A stretch of DNA of 50,420 nt from IMG/VR virus record IMGVR_UViG_3300028025_005046, positions 1 to 50,420 of that record, one strand, 5' to 3'. Shown one piece after another: positions 13,332 through 43,428 of the stretch. The notes beneath the pieces were generated by a model. That model worked only from the letters and a program-made list of their open reading frames with translations, was not told where the DNA came from and ran no database searches. The DNA is from a virus. The translations under genes and the position numbers were made by a program. Within the stretch, counting starts at the first letter, position 1. Each line of letters begins with the position of its first letter.

Positions 13332-13363
13332 AAGACCTTGGATTTGCGTCCAGGGTCTTTTTT
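13332..13363 (+). terminator. Terminator ending the 11334-13315 operon
   Basis: AAGACCTTGG (13332-13341) pairs with CCAGGGTCTT (13350-13359), followed by TTTTT. Confidence 0.85.
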
Positions 13364-13378
13364 CTTTATACTGGCGAC

Positions 13379-13822
13379 ATGGAATTACTATCTGCTAGAA
13401 AAGTTGCTAAGGCCCTCGGGGTAGATGTGGCTATGGTCCACTATTGGACTAAGAAGGGTCGCCTAACTAGATATCAGCCAGACCTGACAAAGAAGCGTTT
13501 CTTCTATGACATCGAAGAAGTGAGAGCAGTCCAAGGTCGAACCATGTATGACGGGGTGCCCGATAACTTCATAACAAGAAAAGAAGCAGCAGACTATCTT
13601 TGGGTGCAGGCTCCTCAGATTGGATACTACACACGGCGAGGTTATCTAACCAAACACTACATCCTCGGAAACGACTACAACTATATGCTAGATGAAGCAG
13701 AAGTCAAGAATGTACCAAAGATACTTCAGGACATTGAAATGCGTCGAATTGCCAATCTTAAGAAATTAGGCGATAAGATGAACCTGCATGGTGCAAACGG
13801 GAAGTACATCTCGAAGTCATAG
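13379..13822 (+). CDS. Tandem winged-helix (MerR/excisionase-type) DNA-binding protein, leaderless
   Basis: 147 aa. Two HTH_17-like units: residues 2-53 (LSARKVAKALGVDVAMVHYW, then a YDIEEV wing) and 63-120 (ITRKEAADYLWVQAPQIGYY, then YMLDEAEV). Proteins of this type bind direct repeats as excisionases or regulators. TATACT (13367-13372) is six bases before the ATG with no ribosome site. A similar one-domain gene follows, so the pair could form a small regulatory module. Confidence 0.78.
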   Translation: MELLSARKVAKALGVDVAMVHYWTKKGRLTRYQPDLTKKRFFYDIEEVRAVQGRTMYDGVPDNFITRKEAADYLWVQAPQIGYYTRRGYLTKHYILGNDYNYMLDEAEVKNVPKILQDIEMRRIANLKKLGDKMNLHGANGKYISKS

Positions 13823-14371: not shown

Positions 14372-15343
14372 ATGTTCGAAATAGAAGAAGACCCGGGAGA
14401 CACTCAACCGCAGGTTGATGCACCTATCGACCTCCGCCCAGATCTATCCGTCCTCGGTATTGAAGAAGTTGATAAGGGCGTTTGCCAGGACAACTACATA
14501 AACCGTGGTATATTACGGCGAGCAGGAATGTCTTGGGACCCTGTCTATTCAACAACGGGACAAACAACCGGTCTCATCTTCGCACGAAGCAAAGAGTCAC
14601 GGATGGAGCGCCGCCTCCAGTCCCTCGCTGAAAAGCGTCCATTACTTCAAGTTCCAACGGACAACAACTCCGATTACATAACCGGCCTGGATCTACTTGC
14701 TGAAGAAGCAACGGACTACTTAGTTCCACCATGGGTTGTTCACTCGACCCGCCTCTACCTCAAAGAGCAAGAAGAGGGTCACACAAATCCAAAGCGTCAA
14801 CCGCTAGCCCAACCGCATCGCTGCCGCCAGGTAAAAGATGACGGTATTCGTTGTATGTTGTGGAGCTCTGGACGGATCAAGGATGACGGCCTGTGCCGAA
14901 TACACCTGAGATCTACGCAGCACAAAACCTCCGATGACATCGAACGGGCTCGTGCGAAGTTAGTCCAGGCAGCTCCTTACGCGGTTGACCTCCTTGAAGA
15001 TCTGATGGAGAACGCGGAGTCAGAACCTGTGAAGTTGAAAGCTGCAACGGAGATCCTAGATCGAGCCGGTGTACGTGGTGGTATTGAGATCGACTCGACG
15101 GTTGTTCTTGACGCCCGTCCAGCGGCGAGCATCATTGCGGATCGACTTGACAGATTGGCACAAGGTGCTATAAATACCGCAGCACGTCTAGCGGAGGCCG
15201 GCCTGCATGTTGAACCGGACAAAGAGATTATTGATGCCGAGATTGTAACCGACGGTGAGAAGTTAGATCCCGCAGCTAAGCTAACTTCTAACGAATCAAA
15301 CGATGATGATATAGCAGCTACAGCTGAAGGCGGCCAGGACTAA
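14372..15343 (+). CDS. Possible terminase small subunit-like protein
   Basis: 323 aa from the ATG at 14372 (CGGAGAGAACG upstream), preferred over the in-frame ATG at 14300. A Cys/His cluster (HRCRQVKDDGIRCMLW to CRIHL, about 150-182) resembles a zinc finger. Residues about 200-240 (AAPYAVDLLEDLMENAESEP then VKLKAATEILDRAGVRGG) look like the helical segment common in small terminases. The large subunit is 24 kb away at 39135, which is unusual, so a different DNA-binding role is possible. Three operator-like sites lie in or before the gene. Confidence 0.45.
   Translation: MFEIEEDPGDTQPQVDAPIDLRPDLSVLGIEEVDKGVCQDNYINRGILRRAGMSWDPVYSTTGQTTGLIFARSKESRMERRLQSLAEKRPLLQVPTDNNSDYITGLDLLAEEATDYLVPPWVVHSTRLYLKEQEEGHTNPKRQPLAQPHRCRQVKDDGIRCMLWSSGRIKDDGLCRIHLRSTQHKTSDDIERARAKLVQAAPYAVDLLEDLMENAESEPVKLKAATEILDRAGVRGGIEIDSTVVLDARPAASIIADRLDRLAQGAINTAARLAEAGLHVEPDKEIIDAEIVTDGEKLDPAAKLTSNESNDDDIAATAEGGQD
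15283..15295 (+). promoter_or_regulatory. AACTTCNAACGRA site inside a coding region
   Basis: AACTTCTAACGAA near the 3' end of the 14372 gene, read as L-T-S-N-E; the other intragenic sites are read in different frames. Confidence 0.5.
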
Positions 15344-15345
15344 CA

Positions 15346-15528
15346 ATGAACGAAGACATTAAGCTAGCGGCCCGCATGTTGTACGAGAACATCAAAGCGG
15401 ATATCGAAAACGCAAGTACACGGATCGAGCACATCCGACTAACGACGTTAGCTCAGGAAGCTCAGAATCTTTTAACGGAGATCGAGAAGTTCAACGGTGT
15501 GATAGACTCACCCCGTGAAGAAATTTAA
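15346..15528 (+). CDS. 60-aa helical hypothetical protein
   Basis: Begins 2 nt after the previous stop and overlaps the following GTG start by 14 nt. It is entirely helical with heptad-like spacing (ARMLYENIKADIENASTRIE), suggesting a coiled-coil oligomer. No family recognised. Confidence 0.6.
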   Translation: MNEDIKLAARMLYENIKADIENASTRIEHIRLTTLAQEAQNLLTEIEKFNGVIDSPREEI

Positions 15529-16390
15529 CCCAGCAGATAATCTGATTGCAACGGCCCGCAAGTATGTGGGTTATAAATCAGATCTTGGTGGGCGTAACAT
15601 CTTCGGCGAGCGCGTTGGTTATGATGCGACGGTATGGTCTGGGGCATTCATTGATGTGATCGCCCGGGAGAGCGGCCTGGATTTACCAAGCTTCGTTTAT
15701 AGTCCAGCTGCGCTCGCCGAATTCTTCCGCCGCGGACAACTTCGAATGAAACCGCAGCCAGGTGACATTGCCATCTTTAACTTCGCATCGATCACAACAA
15801 CTAACGGATCTAACTTTGCAGCAGCACATGTCGGCCTGGTTGTAGATACCCGGGAGCTAACTTCCAACGGACGGTTCCTAACCATCGAAGGAAATGTAAC
15901 CGGATCAACTTCTTACCAACAGTTCGACGGCGTGCATCAGAAGATCCGATATACGACGGAGGTCATCGCCTTCGCGCGGCCCGCTAACTTCGAACGAGGT
16001 ATTCGGAAGTTTGTACGTACAGCTGCAGCGGCCAGCTTCAAACTAGTAACGGGTCTTCGTGCTAAGTTCAGCGCTGCAGATCGGATCGAGCTCAGCCAGT
16101 TAGCTGAAGCTGCATCCCAACTTCTAACGGTTGATATCAAGATGTTGCGGCCAGGTACCAAGAACAAACATGTAACCGCGGTCCAACTAGCGCTGTCCCA
16201 GGTAACCGACATCTCAGGAGCTGAAGAAGGCAAGTGGGATCAAGCTACGGCGAGCGCGTTTGCTCGCTTCCAAAGAAACATTGGACGTGTAGGATCTGCA
16301 GCTAACGGTGCCCCTGAGGTGAATTCACTGCAGCGGCTTGCACACGTAACGGGTTTGTTTGAAGTTGCAGCTAGTGCGTCAGCGAATTAA
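15515..16390 (+). CDS. CHAP-like endolysin homologue with Ser in place of catalytic Cys, plus PG-binding domain
   Basis: 291 aa from GTG. Residues 7-155 follow the CHAP layout: LIATARKYVGY, then VWSGAFIDVIARESGL where the family has WCGAFV, then PGDIAIF and AAHVGLVV with the expected His105. Position 42 is TCT (Ser), one base from TGT. Residues about 209-262 are PG_binding_1 (MLRPGTKNKHVTAVQLALSQ). No signal peptide. It may bind wall without cutting it, use Ser, or be decayed. It sits apart from the M23 lysis block. Two operator-like sites lie inside. Confidence 0.72.
   Translation: MKKFNPADNLIATARKYVGYKSDLGGRNIFGERVGYDATVWSGAFIDVIARESGLDLPSFVYSPAALAEFFRRGQLRMKPQPGDIAIFNFASITTTNGSNFAAAHVGLVVDTRELTSNGRFLTIEGNVTGSTSYQQFDGVHQKIRYTTEVIAFARPANFERGIRKFVRTAAAASFKLVTGLRAKFSAADRIELSQLAEAASQLLTVDIKMLRPGTKNKHVTAVQLALSQVTDISGAEEGKWDQATASAFARFQRNIGRVGSAANGAPEVNSLQRLAHVTGLFEVAASASAN
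15859..15871 (+). promoter_or_regulatory. AACTTCNAACGRA site inside a coding region
   Basis: AACTTCCAACGGA within the CHAP-like gene. One-mismatch copies lie at 15986 and 16119. Confidence 0.5.
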
Positions 16391-16682
16391 AGACGGCTTG
16401 CGCCAATACATAGCGCAGTTCAAACGAGCACCGTGGTGGGTTAAAGTCATCGCGACTATATGTCTTGCATATTTAGTCATGCCGATCGATCCATTCGATG
16501 TGCTCTTCCCATGGATGGCATTCAGTGACGATCTATTCATTGCGGGCCTGCTTCTTAAGCTTCTTCACAAGTACGGGTCCGTCCCATCTGATGAGAAGCT
16601 CACCCCGCTGCAACTTCTAACGAAGATCCTTCCACCCCGTCGTAAGAAGAACGTCGACTCGCAGCTTCGAAAGATTCGTTAG
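16374..16682 (+). CDS. DUF1232 (YkvA-like) membrane protein
   Basis: About 102 aa from GTG at 16374, overlapping the preceding stop; a TTG at 16359 is alternative. The family signature is clear: WWVKVIATICLAYLVMPIDP with the YLxxPIDxxP loop, then SDDLFIAGLLLKLL, giving two membrane spans. The tail is basic (PPRRKKN). DUF1232 function is unknown. An exact operator-like site lies near the 3' end. Confidence 0.75.
   Translation: MRQRIKDGLRQYIAQFKRAPWWVKVIATICLAYLVMPIDPFDVLFPWMAFSDDLFIAGLLLKLLHKYGSVPSDEKLTPLQLLTKILPPRRKKNVDSQLRKIR
16612..16624 (+). promoter_or_regulatory. AACTTCNAACGRA site inside a coding region
   Basis: AACTTCTAACGAA within the DUF1232 gene. Confidence 0.5.
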
Positions 16683-16699
16683 AGCTCGGCTGCCGGAAG

Positions 16700-16759
16700 A
16701 ACTTCCAACGAACCGATGTGAAGTTTAGATCCGGCCGCCGGCAGCTAACATCAAACGAA
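16700..16759 (+). promoter_or_regulatory. Two operator-like sites upstream of the HicA-like gene
   Basis: AACTTCCAACGAA (16700-16712, exact) and AACATCAAACGAA (16747-16759, one change) lie 31-90 nt before the -35 at 16790. Confidence 0.55.
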
Positions 16760-16789
16760 TGGTGCGACACACCGATGACAGCGGCCTGC

Positions 16790-16819
16790 TTGACAAATGT
16801 CACATTGCACTGCTACGGT
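16790..16819 (+). promoter_or_regulatory. Promoter of the leaderless HicA-like gene
   Basis: TTGACA (16790-16795), 18-nt spacer, TACGGT (16814-16819), then exactly six bases to the ATG. Confidence 0.75.
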
Positions 16820-16825
16820 TACAAC

Positions 16826-17044
16826 ATGGCTAATAACTATGTGAAACTCATGAAGCGCGTCGTGAAGATTGCGATTGAAAACGGGTGGGACGTCACGATG
16901 ACCTCACGCGGACACTATCGCTTTGTCTCTCCCGACAAGACTCAACCGATAATCCACTTAAGCGGCACGCCCTCAGATAGCAAGACTTACATCTGTGGCA
17001 TGGCTCAACTAAGACGGCACGGCCTGCCAGTTCCTAACCGATGA
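16826..17044 (+). CDS. HicA-like small protein, leaderless
   Basis: 72 aa. The pattern IAIENGWDVTMTSRGHYRFV with a conserved-looking GH and a following strand-helix resembles the dsRBD-like fold of HicA mRNA interferases, whose active His sits in a similar turn. Many actinophages carry similar solitary proteins. No HicB antitoxin is evident. The ATG at 16826 is chosen because a -10 lies six bases upstream; a longer frame upstream lacks signals. Confidence 0.6.
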   Translation: MANNYVKLMKRVVKIAIENGWDVTMTSRGHYRFVSPDKTQPIIHLSGTPSDSKTYICGMAQLRRHGLPVPNR

Positions 17045-18983: not shown

Positions 18984-20006
18984 ATGACTACTACAATCAC
19001 AACACCAGCACCAGAGCCAACTATTGACGACTTGTTCCCAGACTTGTCTGCGCTTGTTTATGGCGTAGCAGTTCAGGACTTGGACGCAACAAAAGTTCCA
19101 GCAGGTCTTAGTTCACTTATGCCAGCCAGCGCACGAGCAAATGTTCGTGCTAAAGTTGGAACTGGAACTCCAAAGGCAAAGGTAAACAAAGTGGTAAATG
19201 TTGGCGCATTAGAGGGCGTGGAAAAATACGCACGACCAAATGGTCAGGACTACTACTCTCGCACTTGGGGCGAACACACAGACATTGAGGTTCTGCGTAA
19301 AGCACGAGGCGCAGGTCAGTATGTTCTACTTTATGGCGCACCAGGAACAGGAAAAACAGCCTGCGTTGAGGGTGCGTTCCCAGACGAACTTTACACAGTT
19401 CTTGGTTCTGGCGACACAGAACTTTCAGACTTCATTGGTGGTTATGTTCAGACCCCAAGTGGCAACTTCGAATGGGTGGACGGCGCATTGGTGAAATCTG
19501 CCGAGCAGGGAAAAGTTTTGCTCATTGACGAAATTGGTTTGATTGACCCGAAAGTTCTATCTGCGGTTTATGGACTTATGGACGGCAGAAAAGAAATCAC
19601 AATCACACAGAATCCAGAGCGAGGCACAGTCAAAGCAAAGGACGGATTTTTCGTCATTGGTGCGACCAACCCGAACGCACCTGGAGTTCGACTTTCAGAG
19701 GCACTTCTATCTCGTTTCTCAATTCAGGTAGAAATGACGACAGACTGGGCATTGGCAAAGAAGTTGGGAGTTCCTGCGACAGCAGTTTCAGCCTCACAGA
19801 ACTTGGCAAAGAAACAGGCGAACGGCGAAACTTCATGGTCTCCACAGTTCCGAGAGTTGCTTGCGTTCCGAGACCTAAGCGAATTGTTTGGTTCGAAGTG
19901 GGCAGTCCAGAACTTGCTTGCCAGCGCACCAGAAATTGACAGAAGTGTCGTGGCAGATGTATTCACACGAGTTTTCGGTGAGGCAGTTCTGCCAGCGAAA
20001 ATCTAG
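18984..20006 (+). CDS. MoxR-type AAA+ ATPase (AAA_5)
   Basis: 340 aa. Walker A GAPGTGKT (118-125), Walker B VLLIDEIGLI with Asp182/Glu183, sensor 1 FFVIGATNPNAPG and the sensor-2/arginine region LLSRFSIQVE are intact. The insert-rich order (GDTELSDFIGGY then LMDGRKEI) is that of MoxR/CbbQ/CobS-type remodellers, which pair with VWA proteins to remodel or insert metal into partner proteins. A VWA gene follows directly, which supports the assignment. AAAAGGACGG is the ribosome site. Confidence 0.9.
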   Translation: MTTTITTPAPEPTIDDLFPDLSALVYGVAVQDLDATKVPAGLSSLMPASARANVRAKVGTGTPKAKVNKVVNVGALEGVEKYARPNGQDYYSRTWGEHTDIEVLRKARGAGQYVLLYGAPGTGKTACVEGAFPDELYTVLGSGDTELSDFIGGYVQTPSGNFEWVDGALVKSAEQGKVLLIDEIGLIDPKVLSAVYGLMDGRKEITITQNPERGTVKAKDGFFVIGATNPNAPGVRLSEALLSRFSIQVEMTTDWALAKKLGVPATAVSASQNLAKKQANGETSWSPQFRELLAFRDLSELFGSKWAVQNLLASAPEIDRSVVADVFTRVFGEAVLPAKI

Positions 20007-25343: not shown

Positions 25344-25736
25344 ATGGCAGAGAACTTGACAGTATCGGGCTTGGTAGCAACTACGCCACGACACTTGATT
25401 ACGGCAGACGGCTTGCCGATTACTTCGTTCCGCTTGGCTAGTAGCAACCGCCGATTCGATAGAACTGCGGGCAAGTGGGTAGACGGAGAAACTAACTGGT
25501 ATACGATTACTTCGTTTCGCCAGTTGGCTATCAACTGTGCTGGTTCGGTGAACAAGGGCGACCGCATACTCGTTCAGGGTGTCTTGCGTGTTCGTGATTG
25601 GGATAATGGCGAGCGAGCAGGAACTTCTGTGGAACTTGAGGCAGAGGCGATTGGACACGACTTGACTTGGGGAACTTCGAACTTCACACGAACAGTCTTG
25701 GTTCGTGATTTAGAGCCAGAGCCAGAAATGGTTTAG
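25344..25736 (+). CDS. ssb: Single-stranded DNA-binding protein
   Basis: 130 aa. The OB fold is recognisable: LTVSGLVATTPRHL, ITSFRLASSNRRFDRTAGKW, NWYTITSFRQLAINCAGSVN, KGDRILVQGVLRVRDWDNGE and VELEAEAIGHDLTWG follow the standard SSB strand order with conserved aromatic residues. It would protect ssDNA during phage replication or recombination. The tail ends acidic (EPEPEMV) rather than with the usual DDDIPF tip, so its partner contacts may differ. Sole gene of array unit 5. Confidence 0.88.
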   Translation: MAENLTVSGLVATTPRHLITADGLPITSFRLASSNRRFDRTAGKWVDGETNWYTITSFRQLAINCAGSVNKGDRILVQGVLRVRDWDNGERAGTSVELEAEAIGHDLTWGTSNFTRTVLVRDLEPEPEMV

Positions 25737-27206: not shown

Positions 27207-27601
27207 TGGGTAGCCCAAGTTTTATTCAGATTACGAGTAAAGATTTTCAAGCACCGATTACCCTTTATGGGCACTGGTCAAGAAAAGATAATTTAGAAGC
27301 TGTCAAGACTGTCTTAGCACGAACAGATAGAATTGGCGACCCTAGTTATTTGGTGGCACAGATTTTCTATGAGTTTGCTATTGCGTTAGGTAAATACGAT
27401 GGCTCGTTTTCTTTCGGGATTGACGCTTTTGGACACGATGTAGAAAAGGCTGGCGATGTTGCGACTGTCTACGTAAATGCCGATACTGGCGTCTACACGT
27501 ATAAAGGCGCTGAATACGATGAATTTGAGCCAGAACACCACGAGCCAATGGCACGTTTAGTAAAGGGTAATCAACTAAAGACACCAATTAGTTTTAGTTA
27601 G
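27206..27601 (+). CDS. 131-aa hypothetical protein
   Basis: The ATG at 27206 overlaps the preceding stop. Mixed alpha/beta with a helix around AVKTVLARTDRIGDPSYLVA and a basic tail. Unlike many of its neighbours it has no Cys pair. No family recognised. Confidence 0.65.
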   Translation: MGSPSFIQITSKDFQAPITLYGHWSRKDNLEAVKTVLARTDRIGDPSYLVAQIFYEFAIALGKYDGSFSFGIDAFGHDVEKAGDVATVYVNADTGVYTYKGAEYDEFEPEHHEPMARLVKGNQLKTPISFS

Positions 27602-30103: not shown

Positions 30104-30379
30104 ATGGCTATTTTCAAAGATGGTTCAACTATCGAGAATGGAACTTTTGGTGGCGAGACTGCGATGGACGTGTTCCGATTGATTCACGCTAAGTCATTCT
30201 TGAAACTAGAAATTGACACGGAACTTCGTATGAAGATGAGCCGTGCGGGGACAGCGCTACAACTGGCTGAAAACATTTCAGGCCTAACCTTCGGACGCGG
30301 TATCAAGGGACGCGAGAAGGCGCTGGAGTGGGTCGAGAACGAACTCGCCAGGATAGAGGTCGAGGAACGCCTGGACTAA
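30104..30379 (+). CDS. 91-aa hypothetical protein
   Basis: AGAGGGGAAAAG precedes the ATG. N-terminal beta turn (FKDGSTIENGTFGGETAM) and a long helical remainder ending acidic. No family recognised. Directly followed by a terminator and then the DnaA-box cluster. Confidence 0.62.
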   Translation: MAIFKDGSTIENGTFGGETAMDVFRLIHAKSFLKLEIDTELRMKMSRAGTALQLAENISGLTFGRGIKGREKALEWVENELARIEVEERLD

Positions 30380-30390
30380 GTTTCACCAGG

Positions 30391-30418
30391 AAACCCCCGG
30401 GAACTCCCCGGGGGTTTT
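30391..30418 (+). terminator. Terminator of array unit 13
   Basis: AACCCCCGGG/CCCGGGGGTT with a short loop and TTTT. Confidence 0.85.
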
Positions 30419-30426
30419 CCACACCC

Positions 30427-30479
30427 TGTGGACAACCCTGTGGATAAAGTTATTCACATGTGGATAAGTCTGTGGATAA
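30427..30479. promoter_or_regulatory. Cluster of five DnaA boxes (possible origin or titration site)
   Basis: TGTGGACAA (30427), TGTGGATAA (30439), TTATTCACA (30450, opposite strand), TGTGGATAA (30459) and TGTGGATAA (30471). Three are perfect complements of TTATCCACA, and TTGTCCACA is the preferred actinobacterial form. Starts are 12, 11, 9 and 12 nt apart. No coding sequence overlaps. It could be a phage origin using host DnaA or a sink that titrates it. Confidence 0.8.
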
Positions 30480-30493
30480 CTTTTGGGGGTCCA

Positions 30494-30543
30494 GTATTCA
30501 TTTTTTGTCAAGGGTTTGATTAATTTTGGCGAACTGGTAAACT
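30494..30543 (+). promoter_or_regulatory. Array promoter module 14 (variant 16-mer)
   Basis: The only altered 16-mer, ending TTTTTTGTC (30494-30509); -35 TTGATT (30516), -10 TAAACT (30538-30543); gap only 28 nt. GTCGAAA-ACG-TTTCGAC (30551-30567) starts at the expected +1. Adjacent to the DnaA boxes. Confidence 0.65.
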
Positions 30544-30583: not shown

Positions 30584-30928
30584 ATGGCTTACGCATTATC
30601 CGTAGCACCAGACTATGAGTTCGAAGAGATGGGCACAGACCTAGCAGAGATGCAGGGCGTCGTCGGTGGGTTGATTGAACCAATTGACCTAACACCATCG
30701 CTAACTATGTGGGTCAATGAAGAATTTATTTTCATGCCTCAACTGGAACTCAACCCACTAGCCTCAGCGTTCTTTCAACTCATGGCTGGCGGTAATTACG
30801 CCATACACGGCAATGTCGTCTTTACAGGTGGCGCTGATGAAAATGGAAACCTCAAGGACTTGAGTAGTGAAGACGCTAGCCAAATAAAACTGGCTGCCTC
30901 CGAGGCATACGCCAAATTCAAAGCGTAA
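30584..30928 (+). CDS. DUF3846-like protein
   Basis: 114 aa with AAGGGGGCC before the ATG. GLIEPIDLTPSLTMWVNEEF then LNPLASAFF and HGNVVFTGGADENGN match the DUF3846 layout as I recall it (VNEEG strand, N-x-x-A helix, G-x-VVxTG strand). Function of the family is unknown; it is frequent in phages and plasmids. Confidence 0.72.
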   Translation: MAYALSVAPDYEFEEMGTDLAEMQGVVGGLIEPIDLTPSLTMWVNEEFIFMPQLELNPLASAFFQLMAGGNYAIHGNVVFTGGADENGNLKDLSSEDASQIKLAASEAYAKFKA

Positions 30929-35238: not shown

Positions 35239-35252
35239 CAGCATCAAGTAAG

Positions 35253-35280
35253 CCCCCACTTCGGTGGGGGTTTTCTTTTT
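35253..35280 (+). terminator. Terminator closing the array
   Basis: CCCCCAC-TTCG-GTGGGGG then TTTTCTTTTT. Confidence 0.87.
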
Positions 35281-36032
35281 GCCGTGATGCTCTACGCGGC
35301 CCTACAAGCTTGTGCGGATAGGTTCTACAGGATTGCTCCCAGTATCCTGAGCTAGCCCGTCACGGCCCCTGGGACTAGCCCTAGAGTCTGTATTGGCTAG
35401 CAACCCTAGGGAGCTAAGTAATTGGTCTATAGCCCAGTGAAGGCCCCTAGGGGTCTCTAGGGACTCTTTAGGTCTCTATAAAGGTGATTCTTTAGGAGTG
35501 ACTAGATAGCCCTTGTATGACTCAAGCTTGAGCTCAGTGAGTGTGCTTAGGCCCAGGAGACTAATGGCTAGTTAGTTGCTAGTTGGGTTAGCTACTAGTG
35601 CTCATCAAGCTCAAGGGTGATTGACTACTAGAGACTCTTGGTTAGTAGTTGTCTCTTTGCTTGTCTAGCTATCTATCTTTGTCTGTTTGTTTCTTTGTTG
35701 ATAGTTGTTTGTCTTTTCTCTTGCTCTTTCTATTTTTTGTATGTCTCTTATTAAGTTTGAAAACAAAAAAGCTATAGACCCCCTGGGGTCATTTTAGGAA
35801 ACAATTTCGACGCGTCCCAGAATCAACAACTGCCGTCTCGCACCCCAAAAGCATTTCAACGTCAATCTTACCCTATACCCCCCTTTATGCAAATTCCTCC
35901 CATCCTGAAGACCCCCTCTTTTAAAAATGGCTCTCCACAAATTTTCAAAAAATTCCTCCTCTACTTACCATAGGAGCCAAGATTATTCAAGATAATGGAC
36001 GCCCCTACCGATCCCTATGCTATGATTAGCGC
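35281..36032. other. Gene-free CTAG-rich then pyrimidine-rich spacer
   Basis: About 750 nt without a plausible gene. From 35341 to about 35670 the tetranucleotide CTAG occurs 13 times by my count, with words such as GGCTAG, CCTAGG and ACTAGT. From about 35650 to 35760 the plus strand is T-rich (runs of TTTG and TCTTT), then C-rich to about 35950. A short GACCCC-CT-GGGGTC palindrome lies at 35777-35790. The right edge carries a GACGCC repeat and the promoter of the 36033 gene. It separates the array from the structural genes and could hold a packaging or replication site. Confidence 0.55.
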
Positions 36033-39134: not shown

Positions 39135-40547
39135 ATGGGTAAAAGCATTATGGAAATTCTCTCCGGACTATCCGAGGAGGAGCGTAGTGCTGCGCTCGAG
39201 GGTGTAGACCCCGAACAATTACTTTGGGACTGGTCCGTCTGGGGACGTCCAGAGCAACAGGCTCCCGAGGGCGACTGGAACATCTGGCTTGTACTTGCAG
39301 GCCGTGGTTTCGGTAAGACTCGTCTAGCCTCAGAGTGGGTTCGCGAACAAGCGAAATACACCACCGACGGCCAACGCCGTTTCGCACTTGTTGCCCGTAC
39401 CGCAGCTGACGTACGTGACGTTATCGTTGAAGGTGAGTCCGGCATCATGAATGTCACGCCTCCTTCTGAGAAACCTCTATACGAGCCTTCCAAAAGAAGG
39501 TTGACTTGGCCTAACGGAAATACAGCCACACTCTTTACAGCGGATGAGCCTGACTCGCTTCGTGGTCCGCAGTTCACTCACGCGTGGGGCGATGAGATTG
39601 CAGCTTGGCGTCAAACCCCCGATGCCGCGGGTATGACCGCGTTCGACAACTTACGTGTTGGTACTCGTCTTGGTGCAAAGCCAAAGATTCTTGTCACCAC
39701 CACTCCGAAGCGCACTCCGCTTCTCTACAAACTTATTGAAGAGCAAAAGACTGGTCGCGTTGCGATTACTCGTGGTTCAACCATGGACAACGCTGGTAAC
39801 TTGTCTGGCGCTTATATGGACACAATGCTCGGCGTATACGAGGGAACCTCTCTTGCACGCCAGGAGCTCTATGGTGAAATGCTTGAAGCCATGGAAGGAG
39901 CAATGTGGACAGAGGAGATGATCGAGGCTGGACGTGAAAGCATCTACCCTTTCTCAACTCCCCTTAGAATTATCGGTGTAGATCCTTCCGTTGCCGAAAA
40001 CCCGAGAGATGAGTGTGGAATTGTTGTTGTTGCGTCTTCAGCTGAAGGTGATCTTTACAAACGTAATGCGTGGGTTCTTGAAGACGCTTCGGTACTTGGT
40101 TCGCCTACCGTTTGGGCTCAAAAAGTTGTCGAGATGGCTCGCAAATGGGGCTGTCCGGTTGTCGCCGAGGTTAATCAGGGCGGTGCAATGGTACGCAACG
40201 CGATCAACACCATCGACCCCACAATTAAAGTACTTGAAGTCCACTCCAAACAAGGAAAACAGCTCCGAGCAGAGCCGATCTCTCTGGCTTACGAGCAGCA
40301 GCGAGTTCATCACGTCGGCTATCTTGCGGATTTGGAATCGCAAATGATTTCTTGGGTGCCTGGAGAGGGTAAATCGCCTGACCGCATCGATGCACTCGTT
40401 CACGCACTCACTGCGCTCCTAATTAAGCCTCCAGCAGGCTTTTCCGGTGGAAAACTACGTGCAAAGAGCATGGGAGACCGTAAAATTGGTCTTCCGGGCA
40501 TGAATAGGGGCTCTACCAACCGCGGTGGCACCTTCCGAGTCCGATGA
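39135..40547 (+). CDS. terL: Terminase large subunit, leaderless start
   Basis: 470 aa. Packaging ATPase: Walker A AGRGFGKT (55-62), Walker B HAWGDEIAAW with Asp153/Glu154, coupling motif LVTTTPKRTPL. C-terminal RNase H-like nuclease: IIGVDPSVAE (first Asp) and SPDRIDALVHALTAL (late acidic residue). It cuts and pumps DNA into the prohead through the portal encoded at 41205. TAGTAT (39123-39128) is six bases before the ATG, so the transcript is probably leaderless. Length is normal. Confidence 0.95.
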   Translation: MGKSIMEILSGLSEEERSAALEGVDPEQLLWDWSVWGRPEQQAPEGDWNIWLVLAGRGFGKTRLASEWVREQAKYTTDGQRRFALVARTAADVRDVIVEGESGIMNVTPPSEKPLYEPSKRRLTWPNGNTATLFTADEPDSLRGPQFTHAWGDEIAAWRQTPDAAGMTAFDNLRVGTRLGAKPKILVTTTPKRTPLLYKLIEEQKTGRVAITRGSTMDNAGNLSGAYMDTMLGVYEGTSLARQELYGEMLEAMEGAMWTEEMIEAGRESIYPFSTPLRIIGVDPSVAENPRDECGIVVVASSAEGDLYKRNAWVLEDASVLGSPTVWAQKVVEMARKWGCPVVAEVNQGGAMVRNAINTIDPTIKVLEVHSKQGKQLRAEPISLAYEQQRVHHVGYLADLESQMISWVPGEGKSPDRIDALVHALTALLIKPPAGFSGGKLRAKSMGDRKIGLPGMNRGSTNRGGTFRVR

Positions 40548-41204: not shown

Positions 41205-42944
41205 TTGGGAATTTTCAAACGTACCCCGAAGAGTAACCAGCCGACTACACGTCAGGCTGGGCTTCGCGCTTCTGCTGCTCGTAACGCAACCCCGATTGCT
41301 CCTGGAATAACTGTAGATTCATTCGGAATCGTTCGCGCAGAAGCAGTTGCATTTAACGCTCCACGTCCGCTAACTGCAGCCGCGGCTCAGTTGAAGATGA
41401 ACGATGTAAATGAAGCCGAACAATTTAAAGCTCGTCGTCGTTCTGCTGCCGGATCTTGGCAGACAGAGGCGTGGGAATACTACGATGCCATTGGAGAAGT
41501 AAAATATGCGTTCAATCTTGTTGCGTCTGTGGTATCTCGCATCCGCCTTTACGCGGCTGTTGTAGATGACCCGGCCGAAGCGCCAATCCCAATCGACAAA
41601 TCAGCCAGCGTTGATCCAGATCTAGCTTCTGCAGCGCAGCGTGCGCTAGATCGTCTTGACTCTGCATACGGAGGCCAAGCTGGTCTTCTAAAAGATGCTG
41701 CTCTTAACTTGCAGGTCACCGGAGAGTGCTACCTGATCCAAGTTCCAGAGCGTATCGGCTCGGGACTTCCAGAATCGTGGGACATCCGATCAGTTGATGA
41801 ACTTCAAGTTGATCAAAAGGGTAACTACATAATTAACCCAGTGCGCGACGTTGGCGGAGGCTCCTCTATGGGCGCATCCAAGTCCGCGATCCGTCTTCCG
41901 AAAGATGCGTTCATCGGACGTATGTGGAAGGCACACCCTCGCTACTCAATGGAGTCAGATTCTTCACTACGCGGTCTTCTTGATCTTTGTGCTGAGCTTC
42001 TACTTCTAAACCGCACTTTCCGTGCAACTGCACGTTCACGCTTGAACGCTGGTGCTCTTTACTTGCCAGATGGTTTGAGCGTTGCAGCGTCTCCGGACCC
42101 AGACTACCCATACGACGAAGACGGCGAATTCAACGAGCAGTACAACACTGAAGAAGCGGCTGACGACTTCGAAGATCAACTGATCGACGCGATGACCACT
42201 CCGATTAAGGACGAGGACTCTGCTTCTGCAGTTGTTCCGCTAATCATTCGTGGTCCCGCAGAGCTTGGTGACAAGATCAAGCAGTTCAAGTTCGAGCGTT
42301 CATTCGACGACAGCCTTGTTTCTCGTGCTGATCGAGTACTAGAGCGCATCATGCAAGGTCTAGACGTCCCTAAGGACGTTGTGACGGGCCTAGCAAACGT
42401 TAAGTACTCTAACGCTCTTCAGATCGATGAAGCCCTGTACAAGGCGCACATCGAGCCTCTGATGCTTCTTATTGCTGACGCACTAACTGTTGTCTACCTA
42501 CGCCCATACCTAATCTCGGTTGGATACTCAGAGGTCGAAGTAAAGCGTATCCACATTTGGTACGACCCGTCTCAGGTTGCTACTCGTAACGACCGCGCTG
42601 CAGATGCAGACAACGGTTTTGACAAGATGGCCGTATCGTTTGACACATGGAGACGTGCTCACGGGTTCTCGGACCAGGATGCCCCAACCCCAACAGAGCT
42701 CGCTATGCGACTTGTAGTGAACAAGGGCGCAATTACTCCAGAGCTAACCGAAAACCTTCTTGCCGCAGTCGCGCCTGACATTATGAAACTAATCAAGGGC
42801 ATGGACCAGGCTGCTGCCGTAGGCCCAATTCCGCCAGAGATCGATCAGTTGCTTAGTGGAGAAGTTCCGGCCGCAGGTGAATCAACTGAACCAATCGCAC
42901 CAACAGCAGCTCCTCCCGTACCGCTAGCAGAGCCAGAGGCATAA
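41205..42944 (+). CDS. Portal protein
   Basis: 579 aa from TTG (ACAGGGAGACCCC upstream). Placed after the terminase, with the portal-like helical wing (WEYYDAIGEVKYAFNLVASV), the long central region (LLDLCAELLLLNRTFRATAR) and the late FKFERSFDDSLVSRADRVLE then LDVPKDVVTGLANVKYSNAL, which are typical of Gram-positive phage portals. It forms the dodecameric ring for DNA entry. The C-terminal Pro/Ala-rich tail is probably disordered. Confidence 0.88.
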   Translation: MGIFKRTPKSNQPTTRQAGLRASAARNATPIAPGITVDSFGIVRAEAVAFNAPRPLTAAAAQLKMNDVNEAEQFKARRRSAAGSWQTEAWEYYDAIGEVKYAFNLVASVVSRIRLYAAVVDDPAEAPIPIDKSASVDPDLASAAQRALDRLDSAYGGQAGLLKDAALNLQVTGECYLIQVPERIGSGLPESWDIRSVDELQVDQKGNYIINPVRDVGGGSSMGASKSAIRLPKDAFIGRMWKAHPRYSMESDSSLRGLLDLCAELLLLNRTFRATARSRLNAGALYLPDGLSVAASPDPDYPYDEDGEFNEQYNTEEAADDFEDQLIDAMTTPIKDEDSASAVVPLIIRGPAELGDKIKQFKFERSFDDSLVSRADRVLERIMQGLDVPKDVVTGLANVKYSNALQIDEALYKAHIEPLMLLIADALTVVYLRPYLISVGYSEVEVKRIHIWYDPSQVATRNDRAADADNGFDKMAVSFDTWRRAHGFSDQDAPTPTELAMRLVVNKGAITPELTENLLAAVAPDIMKLIKGMDQAAAVGPIPPEIDQLLSGEVPAAGESTEPIAPTAAPPVPLAEPEA

Positions 42945-42945
42945 A

Positions 42946-43428
42946 ATGGAAGACTATTCAACACCTACCCCTAAAGAGGCTACTGCAGCCGAACTAGGCA
43001 TGAAGTTGGCACATACCCTGTCTGATGTAGTTACTGCTAAGTTTCTAGCACACGGATACCACTGGAATGTAATGGGCCCAGACTTTAGTCAGCTACATGC
43101 TTTCTATGCAGCTATCTACGAAGACATCGACGGCTCAATTGACCCTATTGCAGAGAATATTCTAAAGCTCGGCTACGACGCTCCATACCTGATGCAGGAC
43201 TTCCAGGAGTTGAGCTGCATCCATGAGGAGCGTATTGATGGTGGCAACTCACAGGCGATGAACGCTTCTTTGCTAAAGGTCAACGAAACCCTAGTTAAGT
43301 GCTTCACTGAAGTGTTTGAGCTAGCAGATCTTCTTAATTTCCAAGACATTGCCGACTTCGCAGCTGGGCGAATTGACGCTCACGCCAAGTGGGTTTGGCA
43401 GCTAAAAGCCACTCTAGGCATCCGCTAA
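42946..43428 (+). CDS. dps: Dps-family ferritin (DNA-protection protein)
   Basis: 160 aa. All ferroxidase residues of Dps are present with exact spacing: His39, His51, Asp66 and Glu70 (HGYHWNVMGPDFSQLHAFY, then DIDGSIDPIAE), matching His31/His43/Asp58/Glu62 of Listeria Dps. Such proteins form 12-mers that oxidise and store iron and shield DNA from Fenton damage. It starts one base after the portal stop in the head operon, an odd place; it may protect virion DNA, be a virion component, or sequester iron in the host. Confidence 0.9.
   Translation: MEDYSTPTPKEATAAELGMKLAHTLSDVVTAKFLAHGYHWNVMGPDFSQLHAFYAAIYEDIDGSIDPIAENILKLGYDAPYLMQDFQELSCIHEERIDGGNSQAMNASLLKVNETLVKCFTEVFELADLLNFQDIADFAAGRIDAHAKWVWQLKATLGIR

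Follow-up and report, generated by a model that had tools for sequence, protein, structure and literature searches.

The window, by which we mean the whole analysed stretch of 50,420 bases, is a virus record from IMG/VR; it is probably a fragment, since the record is classed as linear. It carries genes for a terminase, a portal protein, an SSB and a MoxR-type ATPase, and on the basis of these four genes it was grouped with the large actinophages. An array of short genes spans about 22.0-35 kb, and every unit of this array holds a terminator and a 16-mer. Besides one variant copy, 20 exact copies of the 16-mer GTATTCATTTTTTATC were counted in the window. In a non-coding gap of the array, between the terminator hairpin of one unit and the putative promoter of the next, six predicted DnaA boxes are clustered within 65 bp (30415-30479). 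The features of the locus and the corresponding clusters of related phages are listed in Table 1.

Table 1 Features of the window around the DnaA-box cluster and positions of the cluster in related phages
Feature	Position	Strand	Remarks
MoxR-type ATPase gene	18984-20006		
SSB gene	25344-25736		
Small gene upstream of the cluster, phrog_19182	30104-30379	+	function unknown; homologues found ahead of the cluster in G004 and G078, too
Terminator-type hairpin of the preceding array unit	30389-30419	+	T-tract after the hairpin doubles as part of box 1
DnaA box 1, TTTTCCACA	30415-30423	+	triad 1, box I; fits TTWTNCACA; overlaps 3' arm of terminator
DnaA box 2, TTGTCCACA	30427-30435	-	triad 1, box II
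DnaA box 3, TTATCCACA, perfect	30439-30447	-	triad 1, box III
DnaA box 4, TTATTCACA	30450-30458	+	triad 2, box I
DnaA box 5, TTATCCACA, perfect	30459-30467	-	triad 2, box II
DnaA box 6, TTATCCACA, perfect	30471-30479	-	triad 2, box III
Variant array 16-mer GTATTCATTTTTTGTC, 1 mismatch	30494-30509	+	14 bp past the last DnaA box
Candidate promoter of the following unit, TTGATT - 16 nt - TAAACT	30516-30543	+	by eye, weak
DUF3846 gene downstream of the cluster	30584-30928	+	PF12957, E 3e-15; not constant behind the cluster among relatives
CTAG-rich non-coding stretch after the array	35239-36030	.	13 CTAG, 3.6 expected; GC-skew maximum at 35710
Terminase gene	39135-40547		
Portal gene	41205-42944		
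Cluster in G018	27513-27566		five perfect boxes
Cluster in G077	51665-51715		
Cluster in G004	74074-74094		
Cluster in G078	13355-13387		
Cluster in A3Wally	13739-13771		cultured phage
Cluster in Big4	15949-15969		cultured phage; plus weak box

Five boxes between 30427 and 30479 had been described in an earlier note on this DNA and were found as described, three of them perfect (TTATCCACA) and two close to it (TTGTCCACA and TTATTCACA). The variant 16-mer and the DUF3846 gene near the boxes were also given correctly. The count itself was slightly low, as a sixth box (TTTTCCACA) was detected at 30415. Five of the six boxes fit TTWTNCACA, the exception being TTGTCCACA; this consensus is that of E. 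coli. The boxes follow each other in the order + - - + - - with offsets of 0, 12, 24, 35, 44 and 56, which corresponds to two "+ - -" triads. The spacings I-II/II-III are 12/12 in the first triad and 9/12 in the second. In 60 order-2 Markov shuffles of the window the largest cluster per 70 bp consisted of one box (56 times) or two boxes (4 times), compared to six observed. Nowhere else in the window do even two boxes fall within 70 bp.

For the hairpin in front of the boxes a stability of -25.8 kcal/mol (z -3.96) was calculated, and none of 200 shuffles was equally stable; a simple terminator scan did not list it. A consensus promoter scan found nothing for the candidate promoter behind the boxes, and no known RNA element was detected at the cluster site. 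The 16-mer is uniform inside each genome and differs among relatives (GTATTCGTTTTTTCC, GTATTTATTTTTTCT, TAGTTATTTTTTCTG and GTATCCACTTTTTGA; G001, G004, G018, G022 and G012), a pattern that looks as if the motif had co-evolved with a phage-specific binding protein. When viral contigs were scanned with only the 16-mer, nearly all matches were single and probably due to chance, which is explained by every relative carrying its own version of the motif.

Relatives were collected by means of the terminase, for which 524 were found in viral contigs and 80 were kept, with identities of up to 96%. The nearest terminases of the annotated collection belong to Actinomycetia phage DSL-LC01 (72%) and to the Microbacterium phages A3Wally, Big4 and Zooman (62-63%). 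On the DNA level, no close relative in the phage collection was matched by the region 28.5-32.5 kb of the window.

The cluster was found in the same slot, i.e. terminator, boxes and then motif or promoter, in G077, G018, G004 and G078 and in the cultured Microbacterium phages A3Wally and Big4. In each of the seven family members examined, a terminator precedes it and the next unit follows. In the window, G077, G018 and G004 it is located 5-15 kb downstream of the SSB gene and 9-12 kb upstream of the terminase gene. A + - - triad at 0/11-12/23-24 is present in six of the seven phages including the window, with two mismatches in box I of G004 and Big4; the exception is G077 with an inverted triad of the 9/12 form. 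The distance between cluster and array 16-mer amounts to 14-17 bp in the four phages that have the 16-mer. Like the window, A3Wally and Big4 show the slot upstream of the terminase, the order terminator-boxes-promoter and the + - - triad at 0/12/24, but they have three boxes instead of six and no 16-mer. In A3Wally (L551) the annotated start of gp40 (13714-13771) includes the DnaA boxes and the likely promoter, so that this start is probably set too far upstream.

Twelve relatives lack the cluster. Among them is the complete genome of DSL-LC01, in which no two boxes occur within 70 bp. In eleven further large relatives no cluster was detected across up to ~40 kb around the terminase, G003 being uncertain as its contig begins ~9 kb before this gene. 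For Pumpernickel and Cece, a strict box pair was absent from the whole genome. On a terminase tree with 20 tips, which is too small for a rate and demonstrates patchiness, the presence of the cluster requires at least five changes; 254 of 500 label shuffles were as low, hence presence is not clustered on the tree. The module is strongly non-random, conserved in place and patchily distributed.

G004 with the cluster and DSL-LC01 without it are 64-81% identical in primase/helicase, polymerase, helicase and RecA. The replisomes of both phages are thus alike, which indicates that the cluster is dispensable for this replisome. The genes flanking the cluster vary among relatives on both sides. Together with the inversion in G077, this suggests that the cluster behaves as a free module. 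A constant upstream partner gene was considered and rejected: two families precede the cluster (A in the window, G004 and G078; B in G018 and G077), and members of both also occur without an adjacent cluster. DUF3846 was discarded as partner as well, many DUF3846 genes being found without a cluster.

A3Wally possesses an exact direct terminal repeat of 15,503 bp, which contains the cluster and thus provides two cluster copies per genome. The right end of the repeat is located in a CTAG-rich non-coding stretch, where the skew maximum (15435) is also found. By analogy, the CTAG-rich stretch behind the array of the window is likely the right end of a terminal repeat, and the early-gene array is probably a terminally redundant region. 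DnaA clusters near both genome ends were also observed for DT57C, a T5-like and unrelated phage.

The earlier statement that few phages carry such clusters could not be maintained. The 76-bp stretch is matched by 282 phage records at E<=1, many of them at tandem boxes, and DnaA-box clusters are carried by T5-like, Lactococcus, Streptomyces and Vibrio phages, too. DT57C, Lactococcus phage WRP3, Streptomyces phage Annadreamy and Vibrio phage phi-Grn1 are large phages with tandem TTATCCACA boxes ~12 bp apart in non-coding DNA, as in the window; they differ in being unrelated, in having mostly head-to-tail boxes and in the genomic setting. In WRP3 (L556, 2649-4128) and Annadreamy (L555, 2573-4058) the clusters lie in non-coding gaps of ~1.5 kb, that of WRP3 at a convergent gene switch. 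These two gaps are perhaps better origin candidates than the site in the window. Furthermore, an actinophage contig without protein matches to the window (L128, 10753-10822) shows a near-identical layout of six boxes behind a hairpin and before a promoter. The 129-kb contig of a large phage (G068, L591, IMGVR_UViG_3300042505_000752) contains 31 perfect DnaA boxes. In this contig 21 boxes, largely repeated + - - triads, are found within 340 bp (C1:115399-115737), and further clusters lie at 0.3, 101.7, 106-107 and 127 kb.

The exact 12/12 triad with 3-bp spacers was detected in 31 viral stretches, and a perfect triad, with a 5-bp spacer, in one of 247 Actinomycetes genomes; the host search pattern was looser than the viral one, which makes the contrast conservative, and the collections are unequal in size. 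All triad searches began from pairs spaced by 12 bp, so the frequency of this spacing is partly due to ascertainment. As a general viral signature the + - - triad was rejected, since the additional box at 208 non-redundant viral pair sites mostly stands head-to-tail. Host contamination was dismissed as source of the viral contigs with DnaA boxes, because no DnaA C-terminal domain above the cut-off was found in 50 of them. Among the papers searched, none dealt with the titration of DnaA by phage boxes. For a Pseudomonas phage, an origin with DnaA boxes was predicted by software (PMC11512268).

A phage-encoded DnaA was tried as binder of the boxes and rejected. DnaA domain IV (PF08299) was detected in none of nine records including the window, G004, G018, G077, G078, DSL-LC01 and A3Wally, while the controls were positive; DSL-LC01 and A3Wally are complete, and the window and most relatives are incomplete. 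In small-genome Actinomycetes (1.2-1.5 Mb), TTATCCACA boxes are located between dnaA and dnaN, genes that were recognised by reading the flanking proteins. These host boxes and the lack of a DnaA gene in the phage records searched make the host DnaA the expected ligand, and we infer that it binds the predicted boxes. The oriC regions concerned resemble the phage site in having several TTATCCACA boxes close together. Their boxes are 10-11 bp apart and in one direction, whereas the phage site has no DnaA-trio, skew inflection, dnaA or dnaN.

We favour the interpretation, at a probability of roughly 0.4, that the cluster is an accessory docking site which would sequester or alter host DnaA after amplification of the phage DNA; it is preferred to an origin or a promoter of the DUF3846 unit. 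The two phased triads, in which box I faces boxes II and III, should hold about six DnaA molecules next to one another. As an accessory module inside the early-gene array the cluster would be multiplied with the phage genomes, which may then bind and hold host DnaA or shift its nucleotide state. Initiation at the host oriC would be delayed or stopped, and the phage would replicate with its own primase-helicase and polymerase. Several results argue for such docking: the six boxes are far above chance, slot and triad recur in relatives, and A3Wally holds two copies per genome through its terminal repeat. The accessory character is suggested by the pattern of gain and loss on the terminase tree. 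The stack of 21 boxes in G068 is hard to reconcile with a promoter element. Known effects of datA and of DnaA-box clusters on initiation point in the same direction (PMC5742627): in E. coli additional plasmid-borne copies of datA restrain initiation, and the DnaA-box clusters of B. subtilis and Streptomyces act as repressors of initiation at the wrong time.

Other observations weigh against this docking reading. Six boxes are insufficient for titration at one genome per cell, so that it is workable only after amplification. The + - - spacing is conserved, which a decoy would not need. T5-like phages carry clusters as well, although a block of host initiation would be of little use to phages that destroy the host DNA. 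Several relatives manage without the cluster. Sequestration as a benefit to the phage is a conjecture with less support than the binding of DnaA. Of the three readings proposed in the earlier note, i.e. origin, titration site and promoter of the DUF3846 unit, titration is the best candidate.

According to the first of these readings host DnaA would melt the AT-rich DNA next to the cluster and load a helicase for the first rounds of phage replication. Several strong boxes are helically phased as in oriC, an adjoining stretch ranks at the 97th percentile of the window for duplex instability, the SSB gene is located 5 kb upstream and one cluster per genome copy is present across the phage group. 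We nevertheless regard an origin at this site as unlikely. The predicted change of skew was not seen at 30.4 kb, whereas the conservation of the boxes, looked at in the same check, was clear, although patchy, and in the same slot. GC skew is positive on both sides out to 5 kb without change of sign in the window, G077, G018 and G004. Its maxima lie 5-8 kb downstream, at the end of the array, in the window, G077 and G018, and its minima elsewhere. The two most complete relatives, DSL-LC01 and G004, have their minimum at the primase/helicase gene. For DSL-LC01 the detrended minimum (128375) falls into the divergent gap before this gene. In G004, where the gene occupies 14416-16986, skew reaches its lowest raw value shortly ahead of it (14147), at a distance of 60 kb from the cluster; after detrending, the minimum moves to 19761, shortly behind the gene. 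In phages skew also tracks transcription, so these origin tests are indirect. No run of at least three DnaA-trios was found within 100 bp of the cluster in the window, G077, G018 and G004. G078 has two such runs, and 25% of the 264-bp windows of the 50-kb stretch hold one. The least stable 50 bp near the cluster reach the 89th-99th percentile, but they lie at promoter or gene-start regions, and in a promoter region such instability would be ordinary. Relatives with the same replisome genes lack the cluster. Taken together, the tests all point away from the cluster as the only essential origin, and its role as main origin was not supported.

The position of the boxes would also be compatible with transcription control, in which DnaA bound upstream of the next promoter or behind the terminator tunes or insulates expression according to the DnaA-ATP level of the host. 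The constant place behind a terminator and before the next unit (7/7), the narrow distance to the 16-mer in four phages and the overlap of box 1 with the terminator T-tract in the window, G077 and G018 favour this explanation. Position is weak evidence, though, because the array has no free place other than the intergenic gap. Six boxes are many for a promoter, none of them overlaps the presumed one, and the module is inverted in G077. A gene-specific switch for the DUF3846 unit was not supported, since the DUF3846 genes of ~20 relatives lack a cluster and other genes follow it in G077, G018 and G004. The boxes may influence the next promoter in a less specific way; as the function of the cluster, transcription control seems doubtful to us.

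The triads resemble the cores of E. coli DARS1 and DARS2, which were recovered as a control in the same scan (+ - -, 14/12): three boxes with the first one facing the other two, and 12 bp from start to start between II and III. By such a mechanism DnaA would assemble head to head on boxes I and II and release ADP, and host DnaA would be recharged instead of trapped. The conservation of the triad in the phage family is in line with this. Boxes I and II are spaced by 12 bp (9-11 in places) and not by 14 as in both DARS cores, and a benefit for a phage with its own replisome is not evident, so recharging is very unlikely. The phage triads are moreover arranged in tandem. Membership in DARS was rejected, the orientation fitting and the spacing failing, and the cluster is better called DARS-like. 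It also shares features with E. coli datA and with the DnaA-box clusters known from B. subtilis and Streptomyces, likewise non-coding clusters of strong boxes outside oriC. Those are chromosomal and more widely spaced; the essential boxes of E. coli datA point in one direction and need IHF, in contrast to the mixed + - - + - - of the phage. Finally, the cluster may be a relic or be carried along neutrally, for example as a piece picked up from a host DnaA-box region. Its patchy presence and the similar boxes at oriC of hosts of this kind agree with that. But the boxes are near-perfect and in register although terminases differ by up to ~40% and spacers vary. A perfect triad occurred in a single Actinomycetes genome (5-bp spacer), so the cluster was not copied from a site that is common in hosts. 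A relic is therefore highly improbable.

With considerable reservation, a wider generalisation may be put forward: large phages of actinobacteria would share an interchangeable DARS-like module, TTATCCACA-N3-TGTGGATAA-N3-TGTGGATAA (at least one triad), in a terminally redundant early region; by binding host DnaA during infection the module would alter its availability or nucleotide state, and unrelated phages would have acquired it several times. The arrest of host chromosome initiation by virulent phages is known mostly via proteins. A short DNA module engaging the initiator itself, fixed in position yet won and lost among related phages, would be a cis-acting interference with the host cell cycle. 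As a caution, a DnaA-box cluster in a phage genome should not automatically be taken for a replication origin. The cultured relatives A3Wally and Big4, phages of Microbacterium foliorum, make the module experimentally accessible.

Two further genes of the window were noted. A small serine recombinase of 226 aa (2001-2681) has conserved counterparts close to the primase/helicase gene in DSL-LC01 and G004. Directly behind the portal gene, a Ferritin/Dps-like gene (42946-43428; PF00210, E 2e-14) was identified, which is conserved in G077, G018 and G004.
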